DNA of 64,000 nucleotides from Propionibacteriaceae bacterium (GTDB lineage Bacteria; Actinomycetota; Actinomycetes; Propionibacteriales; Propionibacteriaceae), in assembly GCA_025965155.1 (NCBI GenBank), contig JAOPXN010000098.1, positions 1 through 64,000 of the forward strand, read 5' to 3'. Positions 661 through 44,051 of this stretch are shown here, piece by piece. Each line of letters begins with the position of its first letter. Positions within the stretch are counted from its first letter, which is position 1. Below the pieces are notes generated by a model. That model was not told where the DNA came from, ran no database searches, and saw only the letters and a list, made by a program, of their open reading frames with translations. A program made the translations under genes and the position numbers.

Positions 661-1737
661 ATGCTCTCCTATCCCGGCAGCCCTCGGCACGCCGCTCCCC
701 GTTCCCGGCGGGACGCCGCTGCCCGATCCTGGCGGGACGCGTGGCTGCAGTCGGCCTACGGCGCCGGGGGGCACTGGCTTACTTCCTTACCGGCGGACCA
801 CTTCCGAACCGCCGCGAGGAGTACCTCGGCACTGGCAGAGCTGATCTCGGCGGAGCTACGGGCCCGGCCCGAGATCGGCATTGTCGTGGACCTGGGCGCA
901 GGCGACGGCACACTGCTGAACCAGCTCGCCGGTCAGCCCGGACGGCTGCCGGTAACACCAGACCGCCACCCCGGGCTGCGGCTGTACGGCGTCGACCTGC
1001 GCAGTCGGCCGGACGGGCTGGCTGGGCGCATCAGCTGGTGCCGCGACCTGTGGGATGTGACGGCCGACCGGTGGACCAGCGGCGAGGCGGACCGGATGCT
1101 GGCCGCGCTCGACGCTCCGGCCCTGGTCATCGCGGTGGAGTGGCTGGACGACCTGCCGTGCGTAGTCGCCGAACGTTCCAGTGGCGTGCTGCGCGAGATG
1201 GACATCAGCTGGCACGGTGTCGAGCGTGCAGGCCGACGGCTGACCGGCGAAGCGCTCGAGTGGGCCGACCGATGGTGGCCGTCGGGTCCCAGGATCGAGG
1301 TTGGCCTCAGCCGTGACCGCGCCTGGTCCGACGCGGTCGCCGCACTTCGCCGACACGGCGGGTTAGCGCTGATGATCGACTACGGGCACCTGAGCGGCAG
1401 CCGCCCCCACCATGGCTCGCTCACCGGGTACGCCCACGGCCGGCAGCTCGACCCGCAACCCGACGCCAGCATGAACCTGACTGCGCATGTTGCGGTCGAC
1501 GCGGTGCGCTGGGCCGGTGAGCAGGCCGGAGCCCGAACCGTACGGCAGGCGCGGCTCGCCGAGGTGGTGGCACACCTCCCGGCCGTTGACACAGCCGACC
1601 CGCTGGCGGCGCTGGCGCGGCGCAGTGAACGGGCCGCTCTGGCATCGGGCCGGGTCTGGGGCGGACAGTACTGGTTGCTCCAGCAGGTCACCGCCACCCC
1701 GACGACGGTGAGGCGTCGAGCTGCTGTGGTGGACTAG
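661..1737 (+). CDS. SAM-dependent methyltransferase, MidA/NDUFAF7 family (PF02636-like)
   Basis: About 358 residues. The N-terminal region has the family's HFRTA segment (about residues 47-51) followed by the SAM-binding motif VVDLGAGDGTLL (about 75-86). Later segments such as WLDDLPC and LMIDYG fit MidA-type proteins. In mitochondria NDUFAF7 dimethylates an arginine of the 49-kDa complex I subunit (NuoD homologue). Here the next gene, 4 bp downstream, is NuoD-like, so the same enzyme-substrate pairing is plausible (inference). Start ATG 661 keeps the conserved N-terminus. A longer GTG start at 589 would overlap the nadB 5' end. Transcription is probably coupled with the following gene. Confidence 0.75.
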   Translation: MLSYPGSPRHAAPRSRRDAAARSWRDAWLQSAYGAGGHWLTSLPADHFRTAARSTSALAELISAELRARPEIGIVVDLGAGDGTLLNQLAGQPGRLPVTPDRHPGLRLYGVDLRSRPDGLAGRISWCRDLWDVTADRWTSGEADRMLAALDAPALVIAVEWLDDLPCVVAERSSGVLREMDISWHGVERAGRRLTGEALEWADRWWPSGPRIEVGLSRDRAWSDAVAALRRHGGLALMIDYGHLSGSRPHHGSLTGYAHGRQLDPQPDASMNLTAHVAVDAVRWAGEQAGARTVRQARLAEVVAHLPAVDTADPLAALARRSERAALASGRVWGGQYWLLQQVTATPTTVRRRAAVVD

Positions 1738-1741
1738 CGCC

Positions 1742-2911
1742 ATGCATGCACCGCTGCGGGTCCTGGTCGGCTCACTTGGCCCTGGGATGCTGCCCGACGC
1801 CACAGTCGGCACTCCGCCGGACGGGACCATCCTGCTGGACCTGGGGCCGGATCACCCGAGCCGAGCCGGGCTGCTGGAGCTACGGCTGTGGACCGAGGAG
1901 GACCTCATCTCCTCGGTCGAGGTGGTAGTCGGGGCCATGCACCGGGGCGCCGAGAAGCTGTTTGAGGTGCGGGACTACCGGCAGATCCTGATGCTGGCGG
2001 ATCGGCACGACTGGCAGGCTCCGTTCGCTGGCGAGCTGGGGATCGCCTTGGCCTGCGAGCGGTTGCTCGGTCTGGAGGTGCCGATCCGGGCGGTCTGGCT
2101 GCGGATGCTGCTGGCCGAACACACCCGGATCCTGTCGCACCTCGGTTTCCTCTCCTACGTCTGGTACGCGCTGGGACGTCCGTCTGGCGTCCCGGCGGTA
2201 CGCGAACGGCTCAGGACCCAGACCTACACCCTGACCGGAAACCGGATCCATCCCATGGCCAACCGGCTCGGTGGGCTGGCCGTCGATGCCGACCAACAGT
2301 GGCTGCGGGCTGAGCTGGGGAGCATGGAGGAGGTGCAGCAGCTGGCCGGGGAACTGGTGGCTCTGCTCGCCGGAGACGAGTTCACCCGGCTCAGTGCCGG
2401 GGTGGGGGTGCTGGCTCCCGAGGTAGTGCACCACTACGGAGTAAGCGGGCCGGCTGCCCGATCGGCCGGCGTACAGCTCGATCTTCGCCTGCAGGACCCG
2501 TATCTGAGCTATGCCGAGCTGGCCCCGCTGCTCGTCCCTGCGCCGGTGCCGGCCGGCGGCGACGCGTGGAGCCGGTTTGCGGTGATGGCCCACGACCTTG
2601 CCGTCAGCGTGGAGCTGGTCCGGGCAGCGGCGGACCGGCTCGGCACCGTCGTCGGCCCGGTATCGGTCAAGCTGCCGAAGATCGTGAAGCTTCCCGAGGG
2701 CGAGCTGTACTCGGCCACCGAGGCACCGCTCGGGATGGCCGGGGTCCACCTGGTGTCGCGCGGGGAGAAGACGCCGTGGCGGTTGAAGCTGCGCACCGCC
2801 TCGTTCAACAACGTGGCGTCGCTGGAAACCCTGCTACGTGGCTTACCGACGACGCAGTTGGAGGCGACCTTGGCCTCGATGGGCTACGTAGTCGGCGATA
2901 TCGACAAGTGA
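1742..2911 (+). CDS. Orphan NADH-quinone oxidoreductase subunit D-like protein
   Basis: 389 residues, NuoD/49-kDa family along its whole length: GPDHPSRAG (35-43), GAMHRGAEKLFE (64-75), LAEHTRILSHL, and the C-terminal ATEAPLGMAGVHLVSRGEK with terminal DIDK in place of the usual EIDR/DVDR. No other nuo gene is nearby, so it is not part of a complex I operon here. Compared with Thermus Nqo4, quinone ligand His38 aligns with Ala42 and Tyr87 with Trp91, so a normal quinone site looks absent. Arg68 aligns with the arginine methylated by NDUFAF7 in mammals. It lies 4 bp after a MidA-family methyltransferase gene. The role is unknown; possible ideas are a regulatory paralogue or part of an alternative oxidoreductase. 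Confidence 0.8.
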   Translation: MHAPLRVLVGSLGPGMLPDATVGTPPDGTILLDLGPDHPSRAGLLELRLWTEEDLISSVEVVVGAMHRGAEKLFEVRDYRQILMLADRHDWQAPFAGELGIALACERLLGLEVPIRAVWLRMLLAEHTRILSHLGFLSYVWYALGRPSGVPAVRERLRTQTYTLTGNRIHPMANRLGGLAVDADQQWLRAELGSMEEVQQLAGELVALLAGDEFTRLSAGVGVLAPEVVHHYGVSGPAARSAGVQLDLRLQDPYLSYAELAPLLVPAPVPAGGDAWSRFAVMAHDLAVSVELVRAAADRLGTVVGPVSVKLPKIVKLPEGELYSATEAPLGMAGVHLVSRGEKTPWRLKLRTASFNNVASLETLLRGLPTTQLEATLASMGYVVGDIDK

Positions 2912-21197: not shown

Positions 21198-22229
21198 ATG
21201 ACGAAGCGCGCGTTCATCACTGGCATTACGGGCCAGGACGGCTCATACCTCGCCGAATTGTTGTTAAACAAGGGCTATGAAGTTCACGGACTCATCCGCC
21301 GAGCTTCCACCTTCAACACCGCACGTGTTGACCACCTGCTCCTCGACCCGCACGACCCTCGGGCCAGGCTCTTCCTCTATTACGGCGACCTGAGCGACGG
21401 CGTCCGGTTGATTACGCTGCTGGCCGATATCCAGCCGCACGAGATCTACAACCTTGCTGCCCAGTCCCACGTCCGAGTGTCATTCGACGAGCCCGAGCAC
21501 ACCGGCGACACGACTGGCGTCGGCACCATGCGGCTCCTTGAGGCGGTTCGGGTCTCCAAGGTCGAATGCCGGTTCTACCAAGCATCATCGTCGGAGATGT
21601 TCGGGGCGTCGCCGCCACCACAGAACGAACAGACGCCGTTCTACCCGCGCTCCCCCTACGGTGCGGCGAAGGTCTATTCCTACTGGGTTACCAAGAACTA
21701 CCGCGAGGCTTACGACATGTTCGCGGTGAACGGAATTCTGTTCAACCACGAATCCCCCCGCCGCGGCGAGACATTTGTCACCCGCAAGATCACCCGTGCT
21801 GTCGCTGCAATCAAGGCCGGTCAACAAGACGCCCTCTACATGGGCAACCTGGATGCGATTCGCGACTGGGGATACGCCGCAGAGTACGTCGAGGGCATGT
21901 GGCGGATGCTCCAGGTCGACGAGCCGGACGACTACGTGCTCGCCACGGGTCAGGGGATCAGCGTCCGGGAGTTTCTGACGACGGCCTTCGAGCACGCCGG
22001 GCTGGACTGGGAGAAGTACGTCAAGTTCGACCCGCGGTACCTCCGGCCGACCGAGGTTGACTCGCTGATCGGCGACGCTTCCAAGGCCCATTCCAAGCTG
22101 GGCTGGAAGGCCACCGTGGACCCGCAGTCCCTGGCCCGCCTGATGGTCGATGCCGACATCGAATCCCTGAACCATGCCGGCTCGCACTGGATCGACAAGG
22201 TCGACCTCGACAGCTGGAAGAACGCATGA
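21198..22229 (+). CDS. gmd: GDP-mannose 4,6-dehydratase
   Basis: Converts GDP-mannose to GDP-4-keto-6-deoxymannose, the precursor of GDP-fucose. 343 residues: NADP Rossmann motif [26 protein letters not shown], and the catalytic YGAAK in [12 protein letters not shown], with [16 protein letters not shown] diagnostic for GMD. Codon 23 is TTA (21264-21266), rare in such high-GC genomes, and the 5' part is locally less GC-rich. The stop overlaps fcl by 4 bp. First gene of the polysaccharide island. Confidence 0.97.
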
Positions 22230-23236
22230 CGCCGGCCTCGACCGGCTTGTCCGGCACGACCGGAACCACCGCAGCGCAGGCGTCGACGTTGCGGTTGGAC
22301 CGGGACGCCCCTATCTACGTCGCCGGCCATCGTGGTCTCGTCGGTTCCGCGATCTGGCGGCGGCTGACCAATGACGGCTTCCAGAATCTGATCGGGTTGT
22401 CGTCCTCGGAGCTGGACCTGAAGGACCGGCAGGCAACGTTCGACTTCTTCGCCGAGGCCAAGCCGACCACGGTCATCCTGGCCGCAGCGAAGGTGGGTGG
22501 GATTCTGGGAAACAGCCAGTATCCAGTCGACTTTCTGAGTGAGAACCTCCGGATCCAGGTCAATGTGATGGACGCCGCTTTGGAGCAGCGGGTGTCGCGT
22601 CTGCTGTTCCTCGGTTCGTCGTGCATCTACCCCAAGATGGCGCCGCAACCGATCCGCGAGGAGTACCTGTTGACCGGCCATCTTGAGCCGACCAACGATG
22701 CGTACGCAATCGCGAAGATCGCCGGGATCCTGCACGTGCAGTCGGTTCGCCGGCAGTACGGGCTGCCCTGGATCTCCGCCATGCCGACCAACCTGTACGG
22801 CCCCGGCGACAACTTCTCCGCGACCGGCTCGCACGTACTGCCGGGCCTGATCCGCCGCTACCACGAGGCCAAGCGGACCGGCGCGACGGAGGTTACCAAC
22901 TGGGGCAGCGGCTCGCCGCGGCGCGAGTTCCTGCACGTCGATGACATGGCGGACGCCTGCCTGCACCTGCTCGAGAACTACGACGGGCCAGAACAGGTCA
23001 ACATCGGCACCGGCACTGACGTGTCGATCAAGGAGCTGGCCACCATGGTCGCGAACGCGGTCGGCTACTCCGGCCAGGTCAAGTGGGACACCACCAAACC
23101 TGACGGAACACCCCGCAAGCTGCTCGATGTGAGCAAGCTCGAGGCCGCGGGCTGGAAGGCTCGCATCCCGCTCCACGAAGGTATCGCCAGCACGGTTGAC
23201 TGGTTCCTCCAGCACCACAGCGAGATCCGGACCTAG
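22226..23236 (+). CDS. fcl: GDP-L-fucose synthase (epimerase/reductase)
   Basis: Epimerises and reduces GDP-4-keto-6-deoxymannose to GDP-L-fucose using NADPH. 336 residues with an N-terminal extension of about 27, then [43 protein letters not shown], and catalytic Tyr/Lys in [10 protein letters not shown]. Start ATG 22226 overlaps the gmd stop (ATGA). Together with gmd it strongly implies fucose in the surface glycan. Confidence 0.96.
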
Positions 23237-23337
23237 TTCCTGCCGTCTCAGCTGCGTACCCGCTGGTGGCCCGTCGGGCCGGATGCAGCTAGCGCATGAC
23301 CCGCAACGACAATGAGCACCTTCACAGAAGGATTCCC

Positions 23338-24585
23338 GTGGACACTGACCTAGCACCCGGCGTCGTCGTGATCGGGCTCAACTACGCTCCGGAACCGACC
23401 GGGATTGCGCCGTACACAGCCGGGCTTGCGCAGGGTCTGTCCAAAGCCGGGCACCCGGTGCGGGTGGTGACGGCCTTTCCGCACTACCCCCAGTGGCGGG
23501 TTTACGACGGCTACACGGGCAGCAGCCGGCGCGAGGTCGTGGACGGGATACCGCTCGTGCGACTGCGGCCGGTGGTCCCGACCACCCCTCGGCTGGTTGA
23601 CCGGCTGCTGATGGAGGTGCTGTTCGGCACCAGGTCCGTGGTCACCTGGTGGGGCCGACCCGACGTCGCAGTGCTGGTCTCTCCGGCTCTTTTCGCGGCT
23701 GGCCTCGCCTCCTTGGCCGCACGGCTGCGACGGATCCCGTCGGTCATCTGGGTCCAGGACATCTACAGCCTCGGACTGGCCGAGACCGGACGGGCCCGGC
23801 TCGCCGGGGAGGCGATCCGCGCGGTCGAGCGCACGGTCTTGAAGTCGGCGACCACTGTCGTGGTCATCCACGACCGGTTCAAGCGGTATCTGGTGGAGGA
23901 GCTCGGAATCGAAGCAGACAAGGTCAAGGTGGTGCGCAACTGGTCGCATCTTGACCCGACACCGGCCGTGGACCGCCGCGCAACCCGCGCAGAGCTCGGC
24001 TGGGGCGATGACGAGATCATCGTGCTGCACGCCGGAAACATGGGAGCCAAGCAGGGGCTGGAGAACGTCGTCGACGCGGCCGCGCTGGCCGCTGATCGCG
24101 GCTCCTCTGTCCGCTTTGTGCTGCTGGGCGATGGGAACCAGCGCACCGAGCTGGAGCGACGGAGCAGGGGCGACCACATCACCTTCGTCGATCCACTGCC
24201 CGATGAGAAGTTCACCCAGGCGCTCCACTCGGCCGACATCCTGCTGGTCAACGAGCGACCAGGCCTGACCGAGATGTCAGTGCCGAGCAAGCTCACCTCC
24301 TACTTCAGCTCCGGTCTGCCTGTCATCGCCGCCACCGACCGCTCCAGCGTCACCGCGGACGAGATGGAGAGCGCAGGCGCGGGCATCCGGGTGGACGCCG
24401 CGAACCCCGAGGCCCTGCTGGTCGCTGCCGAAACTCTGGCCACCGACCCGGACCAGGCCATGCGGTACGGCGAAGCAGGCAAGGCCTATCGGGCCGAGCG
24501 GCTATCGGAGGATGCAGCCATCCAGGCATTCCGGCACGTCCTGGCTGAGACGGTCGGTTCGCAGAATGCCAGCGGAGCCCAGTAG
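23338..24585 (+). CDS. GT4-family glycosyltransferase, WbuB-like
   Basis: About 415 residues from GTG 23338, which has AAGGA 5 nt upstream (ATG-like start at 23296 is longer and lacks such a site). Two Rossmann halves: LNYAPEPTGIAPYTAGLAQ at the N-terminus, VIWVQDIYSLGLAE, LHAGNMGAKQGLENVVDAA, and the donor-site region SVPSKLTSYFSSGLPVIAA. WbuB-type enzymes add L-fucosamine or fucose-type sugars in O-antigens, which fits the adjacent GDP-fucose genes, but specificity is inference. Confidence 0.85.
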   Translation: MDTDLAPGVVVIGLNYAPEPTGIAPYTAGLAQGLSKAGHPVRVVTAFPHYPQWRVYDGYTGSSRREVVDGIPLVRLRPVVPTTPRLVDRLLMEVLFGTRSVVTWWGRPDVAVLVSPALFAAGLASLAARLRRIPSVIWVQDIYSLGLAETGRARLAGEAIRAVERTVLKSATTVVVIHDRFKRYLVEELGIEADKVKVVRNWSHLDPTPAVDRRATRAELGWGDDEIIVLHAGNMGAKQGLENVVDAAALAADRGSSVRFVLLGDGNQRTELERRSRGDHITFVDPLPDEKFTQALHSADILLVNERPGLTEMSVPSKLTSYFSSGLPVIAATDRSSVTADEMESAGAGIRVDAANPEALLVAAETLATDPDQAMRYGEAGKAYRAERLSEDAAIQAFRHVLAETVGSQNASGAQ

Positions 24586-26297: not shown

Positions 26298-29200
26298 TTA
26301 CTTGTAGGTCAGGATCAGCACCGGACGGTTGGCGGCCGCCGCCTCCGACGACCACAAGCGTACGTTGTCGGTGCTAGTCCCGACGATCCCAACCGAGGCG
26401 GTCGACTCACCGAGCGCGGCGACCGCTGCGGCGTCCAGGGTCGACGTGTAGGTGGTGTTGATCGCGGTGGCGGTGAAGGTGCCAAGCGTCGCGCCCAGTC
26501 CCTTCGGCCGGTTGTTCCACGTCACCGTCGCCTCGTCCCACGTTCCGGTCAGCAGCTTCACGCTGTACGGATCAGGTGACGCCGACGCGGCATCGGTGGA
26601 GGTACGGACCTGCAGCGTTGCCCCGGTCAGCACCTTGCCTGCCGGTGCAGCCGGGAGGCTGAACCGGAGGTAGGTCTCGTTGGCCGAGGTACCGCCGCGT
26701 GAGGCCAGGTAAGTTGCCGTGCCGTAGTTGGTGGCGCCTGCAGCCTGGGCGACCATCGAGTCCTCGGTCGGCGTAAGCCGGACGACTGTCGGCGGCACCG
26801 TCGGAATCGTGACGGTGACCTTCGCTGCATCCGATGCCGCGCTTGCGTTGGAAGCGGCGTCGGAGGCAACCACCTTGTAGTACTGATCACCGGCTGCGAC
26901 GTTGGAGTCGGTGTAGGTAACGCCGGAGGTGACGTCAGCGACCTTGCTCGACGCGTCCGGCGTGAAGCCGACCGAGGCGCCGCGGTAGACGGTGTACTTG
27001 GTCACCCCGACCGCGTCGGTCGAAGCCGTCCACTTCAGCGTCACGGTCTGGCCGGACGCAGTCGCCGTCAGCCCGCTCGGCGCGGTGGGGGCAGTCGTGT
27101 CGCTCACCTCTGCCGAGGCGGACGGAGAGGCCGAGCTGGCGTTGCCGGCTGCGTCGAGCGCCACCACCTTGTAGTAGTACGTGCCCACCGCAAGGTCAGC
27201 GTCGGTCACGGTCAGGCCCGTCACCCCCTCCTTCACCCGGTTCGAGTCGGACACGGTGAAGTCGGCACTGGAGCCGCGGTGGAGCGCGTATCCGGTGACC
27301 GCGGTGTCATCGGTGGAGGCCGACCAGTTGACGGTCACGCTGCTGCCGTCGACCGAGGTGGTCACGTCTGCGGGCGCCGCCGGTGCCGTCGTGTCATTGA
27401 CGATGACCGATGCGCCGGCCGAGGCTGCGCTGGCGTTCCCGGCAGCGTCGACAGCCACGACCTTGTAGAAGTACGTGCCCTTCGCCGGGTGGGTCGTGTC
27501 GGTGAAGCTCGGTTCGGTAGCCGTGCCCACCGGGGTGCTGGTTGGGCTCACCGCGAAGTCAGCGGTGGCGCCGCGGTGCACCTGGTAGGTGACCCCTGGG
27601 GCGTTGTCGGTGGAGGCCGACCAGGTCACCTTGGGAGCGCCGGCAACGATCGACGCCGCCACGTCGGCGGGTACCGACGGTGCCGCGGTGTCCTTAACAT
27701 CGGCCTTGACCGACGCCGAGGCAGCACTCGCGTTGCCGCCGCCGTCGACCGCGATGACCTTGTAGTAGTAGCTGCCGGGTGTCAGAGCGGCATCCTTGAA
27801 GTTCAGCCCTGGGACCGAGGCCACCTGGCTGTCCTTCGACACCGCGAAGTCGGCCGTGATGCCGCGGTGCACCTGGTAGCTGGCCACACCGTTCGCGTCC
27901 GTCGACGCCGTCCAGCTCACCGTCACGTCGCTACCCGCCACGGTTGCGGTGACCCCAGCCGGAACCGACGGAGCAACGGTGTCGTTGAGGCCCGCCGCGT
28001 AGTGCGAGGCCACATCGGACGCCGACAGGCCGTGAGCGTAGACCGCGACCTCGTCGATGGTGCCGGTGAAGTTGGTTGTGGTCGGCTTGCCTGGCCAGTT
28101 GGTCAGGTTTCCTCCGCCTACCTTCCAGTACCCGTCGAAGGTCTGGTTCGTCGTGGCGGTGTGCGTGCCCTCGAGCCGTCCGTCCACGTACAGCTTCTGT
28201 CCGGTCAGGTCCTGGGTCGACACGATGTGGTGCCACTTGTCGTCGTTGAAGGTTCGGGTGGTGGTGATGCTCCGCACCCCTGCACTGTAGGTACCGAAGA
28301 CGATCTGACCCGTGTTGGTCATGTAGGTCGCCTTGTCGTAGCTGGTCCCGTTACCGGTGGCGGTGTTCTCGAACCCGATGATCTTGCCGCCGGTGGTGGT
28401 GGCGGTCTTGATCCAGGCCTCGGTGGCGAACTGAGACGGGTTCGCACCCAGCGGGCTGGCGATCATGCTGGTGGCTGCGGCCCCGGTCCTGGCGGCCTTA
28501 CCGTCGTTGACCGTGGCACGCTGCGCCAGCTGCACGCCGGCGCCGATCGTTCCCGGCTTCTGACCGAAGTAGGAGGAGTCGCTCGCGGCTGTGCCGGTCG
28601 CCTCCTCGAGTCGCCAGTACAGATCGGGCTCTGCGTTGAAGACGGCAGCGCCGTAGCTGTCTGTCGGTGCGGCGTTGACCTTGGGCGCACCGCCGCCGAG
28701 CACGTAGTGGTTGGACACCTGCCGAGCCGTCAGCACGCTGCCGTAGACGGCGGTCTCGTCGATGGTGCCCTTGAACATGTCGCTGGTCGGGCGGTTCGGC
28801 CAACCGGCCAGGTTGTCGCCACCGACATGCCACACGCCGAAGTAGGCCTGGGCGGTTGTGGTCGAAAGCCGACCGACGGAGAGGCCGTCGACGTACAGGT
28901 TCATGCCGGTCGAGCCCTGGGTGGCGACCACGTGGTGCCACTGGTTGTCGTTGTAGGCCGTGGCGGAACGGATCATCTTGAGACCACCGCTGTTCACGCC
29001 GAACTGGAGCTGGCCGGTGTTCTCCATGTAGATGTGCCGGTCGTAGGCGCCGCTGAGCATGGTGAGGCCGTTGTCGGTCCGCGGACGACCATTGCCGAAG
29101 CCGATGATCTTGCCGCCGGTCGTGGTGTCGGTCTTGAACCAGGTCTCCATCGAGTACGTGGTCGGTGCGGCCTCGAGCTGGTCGTTCCACACGTAGTCGT

Positions 29201-30953
29201 CGATCCCGTCGAAGGTAGCCGCGGGGCTGGTGTCGTTGGCGAGGGCTCCGGCCGCACCCATGGTGAGGCCGTTGACGGCAAGGCCGTTCTTACCGGCGGC
29301 GTCGCCGGACTTGTCCTGGATCCAGGCACCGGAAGCCTCGTCGTAACGCCAGAAGAGCTTGGCTCCGTCCTTGATCACCTGCGTCGGGTAGTTGACCGGT
29401 CGCTCCTGCGCAACGGCGCTGGAGGTGGCCGAGAGTGCGCTGACGTTCTTGCCGTCGCTCGCTGTCACGCGGTAGCCGTAGCTGGTGCCGGCGACCACGC
29501 CGCTGTCGACGAAGGTCACCTGCGGCCGGGTCCACCACATCGACTTGACCGTGCCGGTCCAGATCGGCGTCGCGCCGCCGTTGCGGTAGACGCTGTAGGT
29601 CAGGTCGCTGTCGTCGGTGTCCACCACGGTCCGGAACCGGACCTGGATCGCACCGGAGGTCAACGGCTCAGCCACCACGGATGGCGTGGGCGGCCTGTTG
29701 TTGTCGTCGGGGCCGAACCGGGTCAGGCTCTGCTGCGCGACACCGTTGACCTGGGTGAACTCGCCGCCGTACCAGAGGTAGTCCTTGCCGGTGGTGGCGC
29801 CGGTGGCGACGGTCATGGCCCGGGGACCGATGCCCTCGCCGATGCCGTCATTGCCGCGCGGGCCCCACTGGTACATCTTTCCGTCGACGGTGCTCTGTGC
29901 GTTGAAGTAGTTGCGGGACCCGTCCTGGAACGCGTTCATGCTGGCGCAGTTGTGCGCGTGGCTCGCCGCGTAGAGCGTGTCCTTATAGACCAGGACGGCT
30001 TGGGTCGCGCCGAGGCAGGTGTCGCGCCACTTCTGGTCCAGGGTGCCCCAGTCGATCGCGAACCGGCCGTCGAAGACGCCGCCGCCGGTGCCCTCGTTGC
30101 CGCCGTAGAGCGTGTTGCCGCTGGTGTGCAGCGTCTTGGTGATCGAGTTGGTGTTGATGAATCCGGTCGGGTAGTTCTTGACGATCGCACCGGTGACCGC
30201 ATCGACGACGGCAATGGAGTGGGAGTCCGCGCCGTTGATCGTGTCGAACTCGCCGCCCAGGGCTACCTTGCTGCCGTCCGGGGAGACTGCCAGCGCCCGA
30301 CCGTCTGGTGCCGCAGTGGCGGCACGGCCGACCAGCGCGGAGTCTGCGATGAACGGCAGCACGGCTCCGGTGGTCGCATTCACCGCGGCGAACTGCTGCC
30401 GCGGCTGACCAGCGACGCTGGTGAAGCTGCCCGCGAGGTACAAGCTGTTACCGGAAACGGCCATCGAGTGCACGAATGAGGAGACGCCGCTCACCCGCAG
30501 CGGCTTAACCGTGCATGCCTGCACGTCGATGGCGGCGACCCGGCTGACGCTCACGCCGCCGACGTTGCTGAAGTTGCCGCCGATGTAGACGGTGCCATCT
30601 TCGGCGGTGATCACGGAGCGGACGGTGGCCGTACCTCCGGCCAGGGTCACGTTCAGCTGGCAGCTGTCCGGGTTCCCGGTTTCGGCGTTGAAGATCGCCA
30701 GGTTGCTACGGGCCTGCACAGCGGCGGTGTTGCCGGCCGGCGGGCGGACCTCAGTGAAGGTTCCACCGGCGACGACCTTGCCCTTGGACTGGCCGACGGA
30801 CCAGACGATCCCGTTGGCCTGCCAGGTGGGCAGGTTCTCCGCGCTGAAGGAGACTCCGGCTGACAGAGCTGAAGCTGACTGGACTGCTGGTCCGACGCTG
30901 AGCGCGGTGGCGCCGATGGCCACTGCAGCAAGGATGGCGGCAGGCTTGCGCAA
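26298..30953 (-). CDS. Giant secreted multidomain protein: propeller, LamG x2, FnIII x5, CBM96/DNRLRE-like
   Basis: 1551 residues with signal peptide (about 1-30, ILAAVAIGATALSV...). Order: beta-propeller-like repeats with VVAGGTFTEV, YIGGNFSNVGG, LAGSFTSVAG (about 35-410); FnIII-like module (about 418-530); two LamG/concanavalin-type domains (about 575-750 and 770-980, each with METWFKT or TEAWIKT and WHHV/WHHI); four tandem FnIII-like modules of about 98 residues starting NDTVAPSVP, KDTAAPSVP, NDTTAPAAP, SDTTAPTAP; C-terminal DNRLRE/CBM96-like domain from about 1386. No sortase motif. Start is TTG, with GGGGGGA upstream. Probably an extracellular carbohydrate-binding or adhesive protein tied to the surrounding glycan genes. 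Confidence 0.85.
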   Translation of the reverse strand: MRKPAAILAAVAIGATALSVGPAVQSASALSAGVSFSAENLPTWQANGIVWSVGQSKGKVVAGGTFTEVRPPAGNTAAVQARSNLAIFNAETGNPDSCQLNVTLAGGTATVRSVITAEDGTVYIGGNFSNVGGVSVSRVAAIDVQACTVKPLRVSGVSSFVHSMAVSGNSLYLAGSFTSVAGQPRQQFAAVNATTGAVLPFIADSALVGRAATAAPDGRALAVSPDGSKVALGGEFDTINGADSHSIAVVDAVTGAIVKNYPTGFINTNSITKTLHTSGNTLYGGNEGTGGGVFDGRFAIDWGTLDQKWRDTCLGATQAVLVYKDTLYAASHAHNCASMNAFQDGSRNYFNAQSTVDGKMYQWGPRGNDGIGEGIGPRAMTVATGATTGKDYLWYGGEFTQVNGVAQQSLTRFGPDDNNRPPTPSVVAEPLTSGAIQVRFRTVVDTDDSDLTYSVYRNGGATPIWTGTVKSMWWTRPQVTFVDSGVVAGTSYGYRVTASDGKNVSALSATSSAVAQERPVNYPTQVIKDGAKLFWRYDEASGAWIQDKSGDAAGKNGLAVNGLTMGAAGALANDTSPAATFDGIDDYVWNDQLEAAPTTYSMETWFKTDTTTGGKIIGFGNGRPRTDNGLTMLSGAYDRHIYMENTGQLQFGVNSGGLKMIRSATAYNDNQWHHVVATQGSTGMNLYVDGLSVGRLSTTTAQAYFGVWHVGGDNLAGWPNRPTSDMFKGTIDETAVYGSVLTARQVSNHYVLGGGAPKVNAAPTDSYGAAVFNAEPDLYWRLEEATGTAASDSSYFGQKPGTIGAGVQLAQRATVNDGKAARTGAAATSMIASPLGANPSQFATEAWIKTATTTGGKIIGFENTATGNGTSYDKATYMTNTGQIVFGTYSAGVRSITTTRTFNDDKWHHIVSTQDLTGQKLYVDGRLEGTHTATTNQTFDGYWKVGGGNLTNWPGKPTTTNFTGTIDEVAVYAHGLSASDVASHYAAGLNDTVAPSVPAGVTATVAGSDVTVSWTASTDANGVASYQVHRGITADFAVSKDSQVASVPGLNFKDAALTPGSYYYKVIAVDGGGNASAASASVKADVKDTAAPSVPADVAASIVAGAPKVTWSASTDNAPGVTYQVHRGATADFAVSPTSTPVGTATEPSFTDTTHPAKGTYFYKVVAVDAAGNASAASAGASVIVNDTTAPAAPADVTTSVDGSSVTVNWSASTDDTAVTGYALHRGSSADFTVSDSNRVKEGVTGLTVTDADLAVGTYYYKVVALDAAGNASSASPSASAEVSDTTAPTAPSGLTATASGQTVTLKWTASTDAVGVTKYTVYRGASVGFTPDASSKVADVTSGVTYTDSNVAAGDQYYKVVASDAASNASAASDAAKVTVTIPTVPPTVVRLTPTEDSMVAQAAGATNYGTATYLASRGGTSANETYLRFSLPAAPAGKVLTGATLQVRTSTDAASASPDPYSVKLLTGTWDEATVTWNNRPKGLGATLGTFTATAINTTYTSTLDAAAVAALGESTASVGIVGTSTDNVRLWSSEAAAANRPVLILTYK

Positions 30954-43123: not shown

Positions 43124-43552
43124 TCACACTCGCTGAGTGATGAGCTCTCGCAGGGCCGAGCTTGACGTGTGAGAGGTGTATGGGAAGTACCGAACCTCGA
43201 CGCCAACGGTGGCCATGTCAGCCTCGAGCTTGAGACCCTTCGCAGTCCCACGCCAGTCATCACCTTTGAAGATCACGTCGAAGCGGTACCGCTTCCAGGC
43301 GTCCACCTTGTTGTTGGTGAAGTCTGGGACAACCCGGTCGACGATCTTCAAAGACGCCACCATCTCCATCCGCTCCTCCAGTGGCACGACCGGATGCTTG
43401 TTCTTCACACTGAACAACACCTCGTCGCTCACGACCGCGGCAATGAGCTCGTCACACAGCTTTCTCGCCCGCAAGATGATGTTCAGGTGGCCGACGTGGA
43501 ACATGTCCCAGCCGCCCGGCAGGTAACCCACAATTTTTTGATCTTGGCTCAT
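43124..43552 (-). CDS. Cytidylyltransferase-like protein (TagD/GCT family)
   Basis: 142 residues from ATG 43552 (GAAGAAGG upstream; an ATG at 43612 overlaps the previous stop). HxGH nucleotidyltransferase motif HVGH at residues 19-22 in GGWDMFHVGHL, VPLEERMEM, VIFKGDDWRG and a C-terminal SHTSSSALRE matching the RTxGIST-type nucleotide loop. Glycerol-3-phosphate cytidylyltransferases share this layout, making CDP-glycerol or a similar CDP-alcohol. It could supply the CDP-alcohol phosphotransferase of the island. Confidence 0.85.
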   Translation of the reverse strand: MSQDQKIVGYLPGGWDMFHVGHLNIILRARKLCDELIAAVVSDEVLFSVKNKHPVVPLEERMEMVASLKIVDRVVPDFTNNKVDAWKRYRFDVIFKGDDWRGTAKGLKLEADMATVGVEVRYFPYTSHTSSSALRELITQRV

Positions 43553-43608
43553 GACCTTCTTCTCTTCGGTGGGTCGAGGGTGCAGTTCAGATTGGCCATG
43601 AGGGCCGA

Positions 43609-43995
43609 TCATGCAACCGCCGAGCGCGGGAGTGGGTTGAGTGCGTTCTGCAGCAGTCGGCTAGACGTTTCACGATTAGGCACCAAGGTGATCACGTAGT
43701 CGCCCTCGACCTGCACGACGTCGTCGGAGACACAAAACAAGACTGTGTCATCGCTGCTGATGGCCGGCTCCGAGCCTGAATGCACAACCACCTCATCGAC
43801 GCCACGAATATGGCTTAACAGCGCAACTCGATCGTGAAGTGGCACTAGTGGCGCACGGCCGTAAACGTCGGTGATGAACTCGTCGGAGAACACACCGGCG
43901 ACGAGTCGTGTGCAAAGTGCTCTTGCTTGGGCGATCAACTCCAGATCGCGCACATTGAGCATGTCGAAAGAGCAGGCAAGATAGCCAACGCTCAT
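43609..43995 (-). CDS. Degenerate cytidylyltransferase paralogue (HxGH motif lost)
   Basis: 128 residues from ATG 43995 (GGGGGGA 5 nt upstream). It aligns with its neighbour: CSFDMLNVRDLELIAQARALC against GGWDMFHVGHLNIILRARKLC, VAGVFSDEFI against IAAVVSDEVL, VPLHDRVALLSHI against VPLEERMEMVASL. The catalytic HVGH is replaced by NVRD, so it should not be catalytic. The frame is intact, including a TTA codon at 43816-43818. It probably acts as a pseudoenzyme partner; it is not a decayed fragment of the next gene. Confidence 0.75.
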   Translation of the reverse strand: MSVGYLACSFDMLNVRDLELIAQARALCTRLVAGVFSDEFITDVYGRAPLVPLHDRVALLSHIRGVDEVVVHSGSEPAISSDDTVLFCVSDDVVQVEGDYVITLVPNRETSSRLLQNALNPLPRSAVA

Positions 43996-44032
43996 GAGAA
44001 TCCCCCCGAATCTCCGTAATCCCCCAATTACG

Positions 44033-44051
44033 ATTCGCACCTAGTACGAAT
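44033..44051. promoter_or_regulatory. Imperfect palindrome upstream of the cytidylyltransferase pair
   Basis: ATTCGCAC (44033-44040), CTA, GTACGAAT (44044-44051), one mismatch, about 40 bp upstream of ATG 43995. A candidate operator. The remainder of 44052-44309 holds no supported gene. Confidence 0.3.

Follow-up and report, generated by a model that had tools for sequence, protein, structure and literature searches.

Why does a gene for the 49-kDa subunit of complex I stand directly behind a methyltransferase gene, outside any nuo operon, near the start of contig JAOPXN010000098.1 of a Propionibacteriaceae bacterium (assembly GCA_025965155.1)? We analysed positions 1 to 64,000 of this contig, called the window below; its genome is G000, codes of this form labelling the individual genomes that were compared. 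The original prediction, made from the letters of the window alone, took the two genes for a substrate-enzyme pair, consisting of a MidA/NDUFAF7-type methyltransferase and an orphan NuoD with an unknown function, which keeps the arginine methylated in the mammalian homologue and lacks the His and Tyr that hold the quinone head group. The gene is no orphan of this kind: it is nuoD2, the gene for the D subunit of a second complex I that lacks the NADH module; it stands detached from the other genes of this complex and has borne the name in Streptomyces since 2013. Sequence comparison further suggests a larger finding, namely that a membrane-less derivative of this NADH-module-less complex appears to be retained in several actinobacterial families. 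The features concerned are given below, with the codon coordinates of NuoD2 residues calculated from its start at 1742; papers are cited here and later for those parts of them that were accessible.

661..1737, + strand: MidA/NDUFAF7-family (PF02636) methyltransferase gene; the frame is open from GTG 589, with the likely start at ATG 661.
1742..2911, + strand: nuoD2, 49-kDa subunit of the second complex I, short membrane-less form (PF00346, alignments, AlphaFold model, Foldseek).
1865..1867, + strand: Ala42 codon, in the column of the Thermus Nqo4 quinone ligand His38 (alignment).
1943..1945, + strand: Arg68 codon (HRGxE motif), in the column of bovine Arg85, the NDUFAF7 target (alignment; PMC8042128, PMC3750175).
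2012..2014, + strand: Trp91 codon, in the column of the Thermus Nqo4 quinone ligand Tyr87 (alignment).
2168..2170, + strand: Ala143 codon, in the column of Thermus Asp139 (alignment).

The two open frames lie on the same strand with a gap of 4 bases (589/661-1737 and 1742-2911). The first matches Pfam PF02636 (Methyltransf_28) with 43.5 bits against a cut-off of 23.3, its top sequence match in the PDB is 1zkd ('DUF185', E 7e-4), and a glycine in what we take to be the S-adenosylmethionine-binding motif is invariant in our alignment A3. The second matches PF00346 (Complex1_49kDa) with 143.7 bits against 24; it is not a canonical NuoD, as it stays below the cut-offs of all seven NuoD-type NCBIfam models (best 241.2 versus 360). 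Its AlphaFold model has the 49-kDa fold (mean predicted local distance difference test, pLDDT, 87; residues 68-70 below 50), and every one of the 50 Foldseek matches listed is a 49-kDa subunit of complex I or NDH. A [NiFe] hydrogenase large subunit, which carries two CxxC nickel-binding motifs, was ruled out, as the protein has a single cysteine (C105) and the hydrogenase models gave E values of 0.019 and 0.27. No further nuo gene was noticed within the window's first 12 kb, where only about 660 bases, up to the contig end, are visible upstream; a canonical nuo operon with its own 454-residue NuoD frame, named by reading the sequences, lies on contig C59 of the same genome. The predicted arrangement, a MidA-type gene 4 bp before a NuoD gene that stands outside a nuo operon, is confirmed, and a canonical operon does lie elsewhere in the genome. 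Since 462 related stretches were matched in other contigs of the collection, the pair is not a chance neighbourhood; all 80 loci kept for reading bear titles of organisms that we recognised as Actinomycetota.

To which complex, then, does this subunit belong? In a class sample of 148 genomes, NuoD2 was found in 65 (threshold E <= 1e-58) and a second NuoH, NuoH2, in 39 (E < 1e-90), all of them among the 65. Fourteen genomes were searched for NuoB and NuoH: in G080, G098, G104 and G188 a second NuoB adjoins a second NuoH, and in G082 the second NuoB comes with a NuoH fragment; G005, G041, G078 and G125, which are without NuoD2, have one of each; and G000, G018, G022 and G056 of the window's family have one NuoH, which in G000 sits in the canonical operon, plus extra weak NuoB matches. 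The second cluster of G188 comprises A2, B2, C2, H2, I2, J2, L2, M2 and N2 and no D (K was not sought), and lies divergent from KorAB, the genes of a 2-oxoacid:ferredoxin oxidoreductase (KOR). A 2013 paper on Streptomyces reports nuoD2 as the sole gene apart from the second complex I cluster (PMC3765725; also PMC8388888). Because NuoD2 co-occurs with a second NuoH, D is missing from the nuo2 cluster and the Streptomyces nuoD2 is likewise separate, the supposed orphan is identified as NuoD2. In many Actinomycetota, nuo2 is a full complex with membrane arm (NuoA2, B2, C2, D2, H2 to N2).

Alternatively, NuoD2 might stand in for canonical NuoD as the 49-kDa subunit of the usual 14-subunit complex I, and MidA would then mature this variant. 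Nearly all NuoD2 genomes do encode a canonical NuoD as well, and in G000 the short second cluster described below shares its contig with the canonical operon. Yet G167 has NuoD2 and nuo2 A, B, C, H, I, J, L, M and N (K not sought), no canonical NuoD and only the second NuoB and NuoH; NuoD2 tracks NuoH2 and the short NuoB; 77 of the 148 class genomes have a NuoD-like match and no NuoD2; and the short forms lose columns of the quinone pocket. We hold this explanation to be very improbable.

Two observations on related sequences are recorded separately. The NuoB2 of G167 (L160:13721-14989) extends at its C terminus into a long tail built of repeats that resemble 'DDERAARIAEARRKARERKAE', and distant NuoD-like and NuoB-like matches occur together on G030:C175, G006:C75, G025:C213, G044:C22 and G050:C4; the latter are not nuo2 and are possibly membrane hydrogenases.

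The membrane arm appears to have been lost in the window's lineage as well as in several others, leaving only NuoB2, C2, D2 and I2. The second cluster of G000 (C59:10504-11830) consists of NuoB-like, NuoC-like and NuoI-like genes only (PF01058, PF00329, Fer4) and adjoins KorA and KorB (POR_N/POR, TPP_enzyme_C); the nuo2 membrane arm of an 11-subunit complex I (NuoA, H, J-N) was found in G188 and G167 and not in G000. The window's family, called the family below, is represented by 57 genomes, 27 with NuoD2 and 30 without. A short NuoB (E <= 1e-24, identity 48-99%) occurs in 24 of the 57, all of which have NuoD2, and in none of the 30 without NuoD2, three of which have a completeness below 83%; among these, G050 gave a weaker, different NuoB-like match (E 8e-14). 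G042 has a NuoB fragment at a contig end. We read 41 short clusters, 24 from the family and 17 from class genomes without NuoH2, covering ten family codes, and the gene order is B-C-I in all of them. None of the 24 family clusters contains a membrane-arm gene; the 20 short clusters read later showed no A, H, J, L, M or N match at E <= 1e-3, and the 21 read first no A or H match. J/L/M/N-like matches in 11 of these 21 stretches are weaker than nuo2's own and are taken as the canonical operon.

The electron path of nuo2 is kept in these clusters, with the four cysteines of the iron-sulfur (FeS) cluster N2 and the eight cysteines of NuoI present in 41 of 41. The RHDxxRxG segment of NuoB is found in 0 of the 41, as against all eight full-length NuoB2, which come from G167, G188, G104 and G098 (with NuoH2), G197 and G070 (no NuoH2 match), G082 (a NuoH remnant) and G116 (contig edge). 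By eye, the lost segment matches the mammalian stretch with a hydroxylated arginine near the quinone (PMC3750175), and the N-terminal segment of full-length NuoI2 is unrecognisable by eye in 21 short NuoI. The missing quinone His of the window's NuoD2 is thus one symptom of lost quinone-side segments in the short forms. NuoB2, C2, D2 and I2 are predicted to make up a soluble four-subunit module and would assemble into one particle.

The residues of NuoD2 itself were compared with those of canonical NuoD. Against Thermus Nqo4, NuoD2 H38 aligns with H34, A42 with His38, W91 with Tyr87 and R68 (HRG) with Thr64, and R68 falls in the column of bovine Arg85, so that the predicted alignments of Arg68, Ala42 and Trp91 hold. 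All 80 related loci have Trp in the Tyr87 column and keep the arginine, and 71 have His in the His38 column; the corresponding counts for 78 NuoD2 read in genomes (25 family and 53 class, leaving out 11 class NuoD2 genomes and a broken G035 copy) are 78, 78 and 51. His38 is lost in all 25 family members read and is Gln in G112 and G203. Of the two ligand losses originally predicted, that of Tyr is universal in NuoD2, whereas that of His is confined to the family plus G112 and G203, two members of another family; none of the aligned homologues retains the His/Tyr pair, though most keep the His. Since Trp and Arg are invariant in NuoD2 while His varies by lineage, the former two mark the protein family and His loss is lineage-specific. 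Canonical NuoD was read in 21 genomes, among them G000, and is uniform there: the Arg68 column is Thr, the Tyr87 column Tyr, the His38 column His and the Asp139 column Glu.

The Asp139 column is Glu in 28 of 28 NuoD2 accompanied by NuoH2 and in 4 of 21 from non-family genomes without NuoH2. We then compared all columns between rows with NuoH2 (28), family rows (26, including the window) and other NuoH2-less rows (21), with G070, G082, G116 and G197 excluded from the groups. Forty-five columns, Arg68, Arg88, Asp90 and Trp91 among them, are nearly invariant in the three groups (at least 97, 95 and 90%, respectively). Another 32 are fixed (97%) in the 28 NuoH2-bearing rows; among family rows they are retained in 30% at most, and among the remaining NuoH2-less rows in 60% at most. 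Of these relaxed columns, 20 fall at Thermus 26-61 or 127-152, around His38 and Asp139.

Stages of loss can be seen in individual genomes. In G082 a 123-residue open frame with NuoH pieces lies between NuoC2 and NuoI2 (L165:8930-9301); this is what an internal deletion has left of NuoH2, and it shows the membrane arm in the course of decay. G197 has B2, C2 and I2 and no arm genes within its 20-kb stretch. In G035 the module is lost together, with NuoD2 in pieces and carrying an in-frame stop (L198, G035:C1:289500-294500) and no short NuoB. A quick NuoD2 tree, with Shimodaira-Hasegawa-like approximate likelihood ratio (SH-aLRT) support only and family rows scored as lacking the arm on the basis of their clusters (assumed for G042 and G055), requires at least 3 changes of arm presence, G116 being uncounted. 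Its outgroup root, placed with three long-branch rows excluded, falls among short forms with weak support, and we therefore claim at least 3 changes and not the order of losses. The tree implies eight or more switches between presence and absence of MidA.

Are the short forms, then, simply decaying nuo2 leftovers without function? The NuoH remnant of G082, the broken NuoD2 of G035, the repeated loss of MidA and the long branches in the NuoD2 tree would all be in keeping with decay. It is difficult to reconcile with the retention of every FeS-ligand cysteine in 41 of 41 short clusters over ten family codes, with the 45 nearly invariant NuoD2 columns, and with the shared retention or loss of NuoD2 and short NuoB across the family, G055 excepted. 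We consider loss of function improbable.

The neighbourhood of the short clusters points to a possible electron donor. KorAB lies within the stretch of 30 of the 41 short clusters and no farther than about 2.4 kb from the short NuoB in 21 of the 24 family genomes, and NuoI2 resembles a two-cluster ferredoxin. No KorAB was found within the stretch read around the nuo2 cluster of G167. KorA as a co-lost partner of NuoD2 was rejected, since it occurs in 26 of 27 family genomes with NuoD2 and 22 of 30 without; with KorAB present beyond NuoD2 genomes, the module would give KOR an outlet that is optional. The proximity and the ferredoxin-like NuoI2 would also suit a simpler arrangement, in which NuoB2-C2-I2, on NuoD2 as a scaffold with no catalytic site, serves as the KorAB electron relay, the KOR having taken up complex I subunits instead of its customary ferredoxin-type ones. 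This we regard as unlikely, given that KorAB occurs without the module and that the NuoD2 columns near N2 (R68, R88, D90, W91) are strictly kept, suggesting chemistry there.

We consider it reasonably probable instead that nuoD2 and the short NuoBCI represent a soluble remnant of the second complex I that is fed by KorAB and in which Arg68 is methylated by MidA. For assembly, electron route, acceptor and methylation we infer the following course. An ancestral second complex I would have lost its membrane arm, with NuoB2, C2, D2 and I2 staying, mostly encoded beside KorAB, and the quinone His and its surrounding pocket would have been lost in consequence. KorAB would oxidise a 2-oxoacid, probably 2-oxoglutarate, and deliver the electrons, directly or via ferredoxin, to the two [4Fe-4S] clusters of NuoI2, from which they would pass to N2 in NuoB2, at the NuoD2 interface, and on to a soluble acceptor at the NuoD2 side rather than to a quinone bound as in complex I. 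MidA would methylate Arg68 of NuoD2, as NDUFAF7 does Arg85 of NDUFS2, setting up or tuning N2; this step may be dispensable in some relatives.

What of the methyltransferase? The HRGxE arginine is dimethylated in mammals, yeasts and Paracoccus and not in E. coli, and is Thr in Thermus; its mutation in Yarrowia removes N2 (both PMC8042128, PMC3750175). PF02636 matches 59 of the 148 class genomes, 58 of which have NuoD2 (Fisher 5e-32, uncorrected for kinship), leaving one MidA genome (G115) among the 83 class genomes without NuoD2. Seven class NuoD2 genomes gave no PF02636 match, although our own model detects part of a MidA in one of them, G169, where the contig ends. Among 14 control genomes, only Caulobacter, Synechococcus and Haloferax carry PF02636. 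The two genes are usually linked: in 55 of the 58 genomes both are found on one contig no more than 11 kb apart; 44 of these have MidA upstream in the same orientation and 11 have the two genes on opposite strands. In the 80 named loci a MidA match lies upstream on the same strand in 61, one of them an artefact at L033, and several of the other 19 are cut short. That artefact, an apparent MidA-NuoD fusion in Kitasatospora griseola (L033:4933-7143), is one open frame with a run of X and a scrambled MidA part and was dismissed as an assembly error. The locus of Microlunatus flavus (L007), a short-form species, holds both genes. The residue after Arg68 is Gly in 54 of 55 MidA-positive and 14 of 22 MidA-negative genomes (Fisher 1e-4; G001 and G042 left out); we do not claim that its loss is tied to that of MidA, the independent pairs on the tree being too few.

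An enzyme-substrate pair of MidA and NuoD2 is therefore well supported, if indirectly, by genome comparison, and MidA would methylate Arg68. The prediction of such a pair gains from co-occurrence, linkage and the Arg in 78 of 78 NuoD2 versus Thr in 21 of 21 canonical NuoD, and is weakened by the family, where few NuoD2 genomes yield a MidA (see below). As an isolated unit it was half right, the pair being one corner of a larger system with NuoB2, C2, I2 and KorAB. A competing view is that MidA modifies a target other than Arg68 and is linked to nuoD2 merely through a shared old locus. In the loci read, the locus does look syntenic, between nad/pan and fol genes (in the window the flanks are presumably a nadB-like gene on one side and folK-, folB-, folP-, folE- and ftsH-like genes on the other, named by sequence); Arg68 persists where no MidA is detectable; and independent pairs do not bear out the association of Gly69 with MidA. 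The near absence of MidA from NuoD2-less genomes argues the other way, as do the 11 of 55 linked pairs that stand on opposite strands and are still close. We think this view unlikely.

Several observations weigh against the proposed KorAB-fed, MidA-methylated remnant. In G000, NuoD2 and NuoBCI lie on separate contigs. G055 has NuoD2 and neither short NuoB nor KorA, and G060 has a short NuoB and no NuoD2. KorA, as noted, is also found in 22 of 30 family genomes without NuoD2. Two genomes without a NuoH2 match, G197 and G070, keep the full-length NuoB2, His38 and a Glu at the Asp139 column, and outside the family His38 is retained by 19 of 21 NuoH2-less genomes. With the window's MidA as query, only 8 of 27 family NuoD2 genomes gave a match and the other 19 did not, where divergent copies may be missed (a ninth family match, in G016 at E 1e-3, comes from a genome without NuoD2 and looks spurious); Arg68 is kept in 25 of 25 family genomes read, MidA or not. 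The model of the MidA-NuoD2 pair (alignment A3) reached a predicted template modelling (pTM) score of 0.59 with no usable interface, and the 50 Foldseek matches listed for it were all 49-kDa subunits, which do not bear on the methyltransferase fold. Finally, the association tests are uncorrected for kinship, and NuoH2 was searched genome-wide in the 148 class genomes and four family genomes with NuoD2 (G000, G018, G022, G056), its absence elsewhere in the family resting on the clusters read. We see an even chance that several actinobacterial lineages turned a proton-pumping complex I into a cytosolic NuoBCDI2, free of membrane arm and quinone site, that carries electrons from KorAB through N2 to a soluble acceptor, its arginine being set by MidA where MidA is kept.

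Elsewhere in the window, positions 43124-44040 (- strand) hold two tandem small nucleotidyltransferase-like open frames, the first with an HVGH-type motif and the second with NVRD in its place; presumably the second is a catalytically dead paralogue. Genes that by eye resemble GDP-mannose dehydratase, GDP-fucose synthase and a glycosyltransferase at 21198-24585 (+ strand) are probably a surface polysaccharide cluster. A 1551-residue open frame with a signal-peptide-like start at 26298-30953 (- strand) predicts a large secreted protein.

How does this compare with known systems? In the open-licence literature we found no report of a membrane-less NuoBCDI beside KorAB, nor of an actinobacterial MidA-NuoD2 pair; NuoBCDI in PMC7117926 and PMC12142623 is, in the accessible parts, the Q-module of complexes with a membrane arm. 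Streptomyces nuo2/nuoD2 (PMC3765725, PMC8388888) is likewise a second complex I set without NADH module whose nuoD2 lies elsewhere. The accessible parts of these papers concern antisense RNA and mention no MidA, KorAB or membrane-less form, and the window's genome differs in being without the membrane arm of the second complex. If the reading proposed here is true, such a membrane-less Q-module would be a natural experiment in which the electron-transfer core is separated from quinone reduction and pumping. The 11-subunit complex I-like enzymes, such as that of Desulfitobacterium (PMC11238625, citing Moparthi and Hagerhall 2011), also lack NuoEFG. The Desulfitobacterium enzyme has a Q-module and membrane arm, and its donor is reported as unresolved, with ferredoxin suspected (PMC11238625); here, in contrast, the genes often lie beside KorAB, D is encoded elsewhere and the membrane arm is missing from many lineages. 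KorAB would be a candidate donor for NADH-module-less complexes. The KOR of Mycobacterium tuberculosis, whose physiological electron acceptor is reported as unidentified (PMC2773412), is a two-subunit actinobacterial 2-oxoacid:ferredoxin oxidoreductase like KorAB here, which we assigned by Pfam POR_N, POR and TPP and by gene order and whose 2-oxoacid substrate is putative. The module would be a candidate electron acceptor in other actinobacteria, and may thereby explain where the electrons of actinobacterial KOR go. Lastly, MidA and NuoD2 share with NDUFAF7/MidA and NDUFS2 Arg85 (PMC3829151, PMC3750175, PMC8042128) the methyltransferase family and an HRGxE arginine beside N2. They differ in being a separate bacterial pair, with predicted methylation, in organisms whose canonical NuoD, where checked, has Thr at that position, and would thus offer a bacterial model of NDUFAF7 with a built-in control in one cell, Thr in canonical NuoD and Arg in NuoD2.

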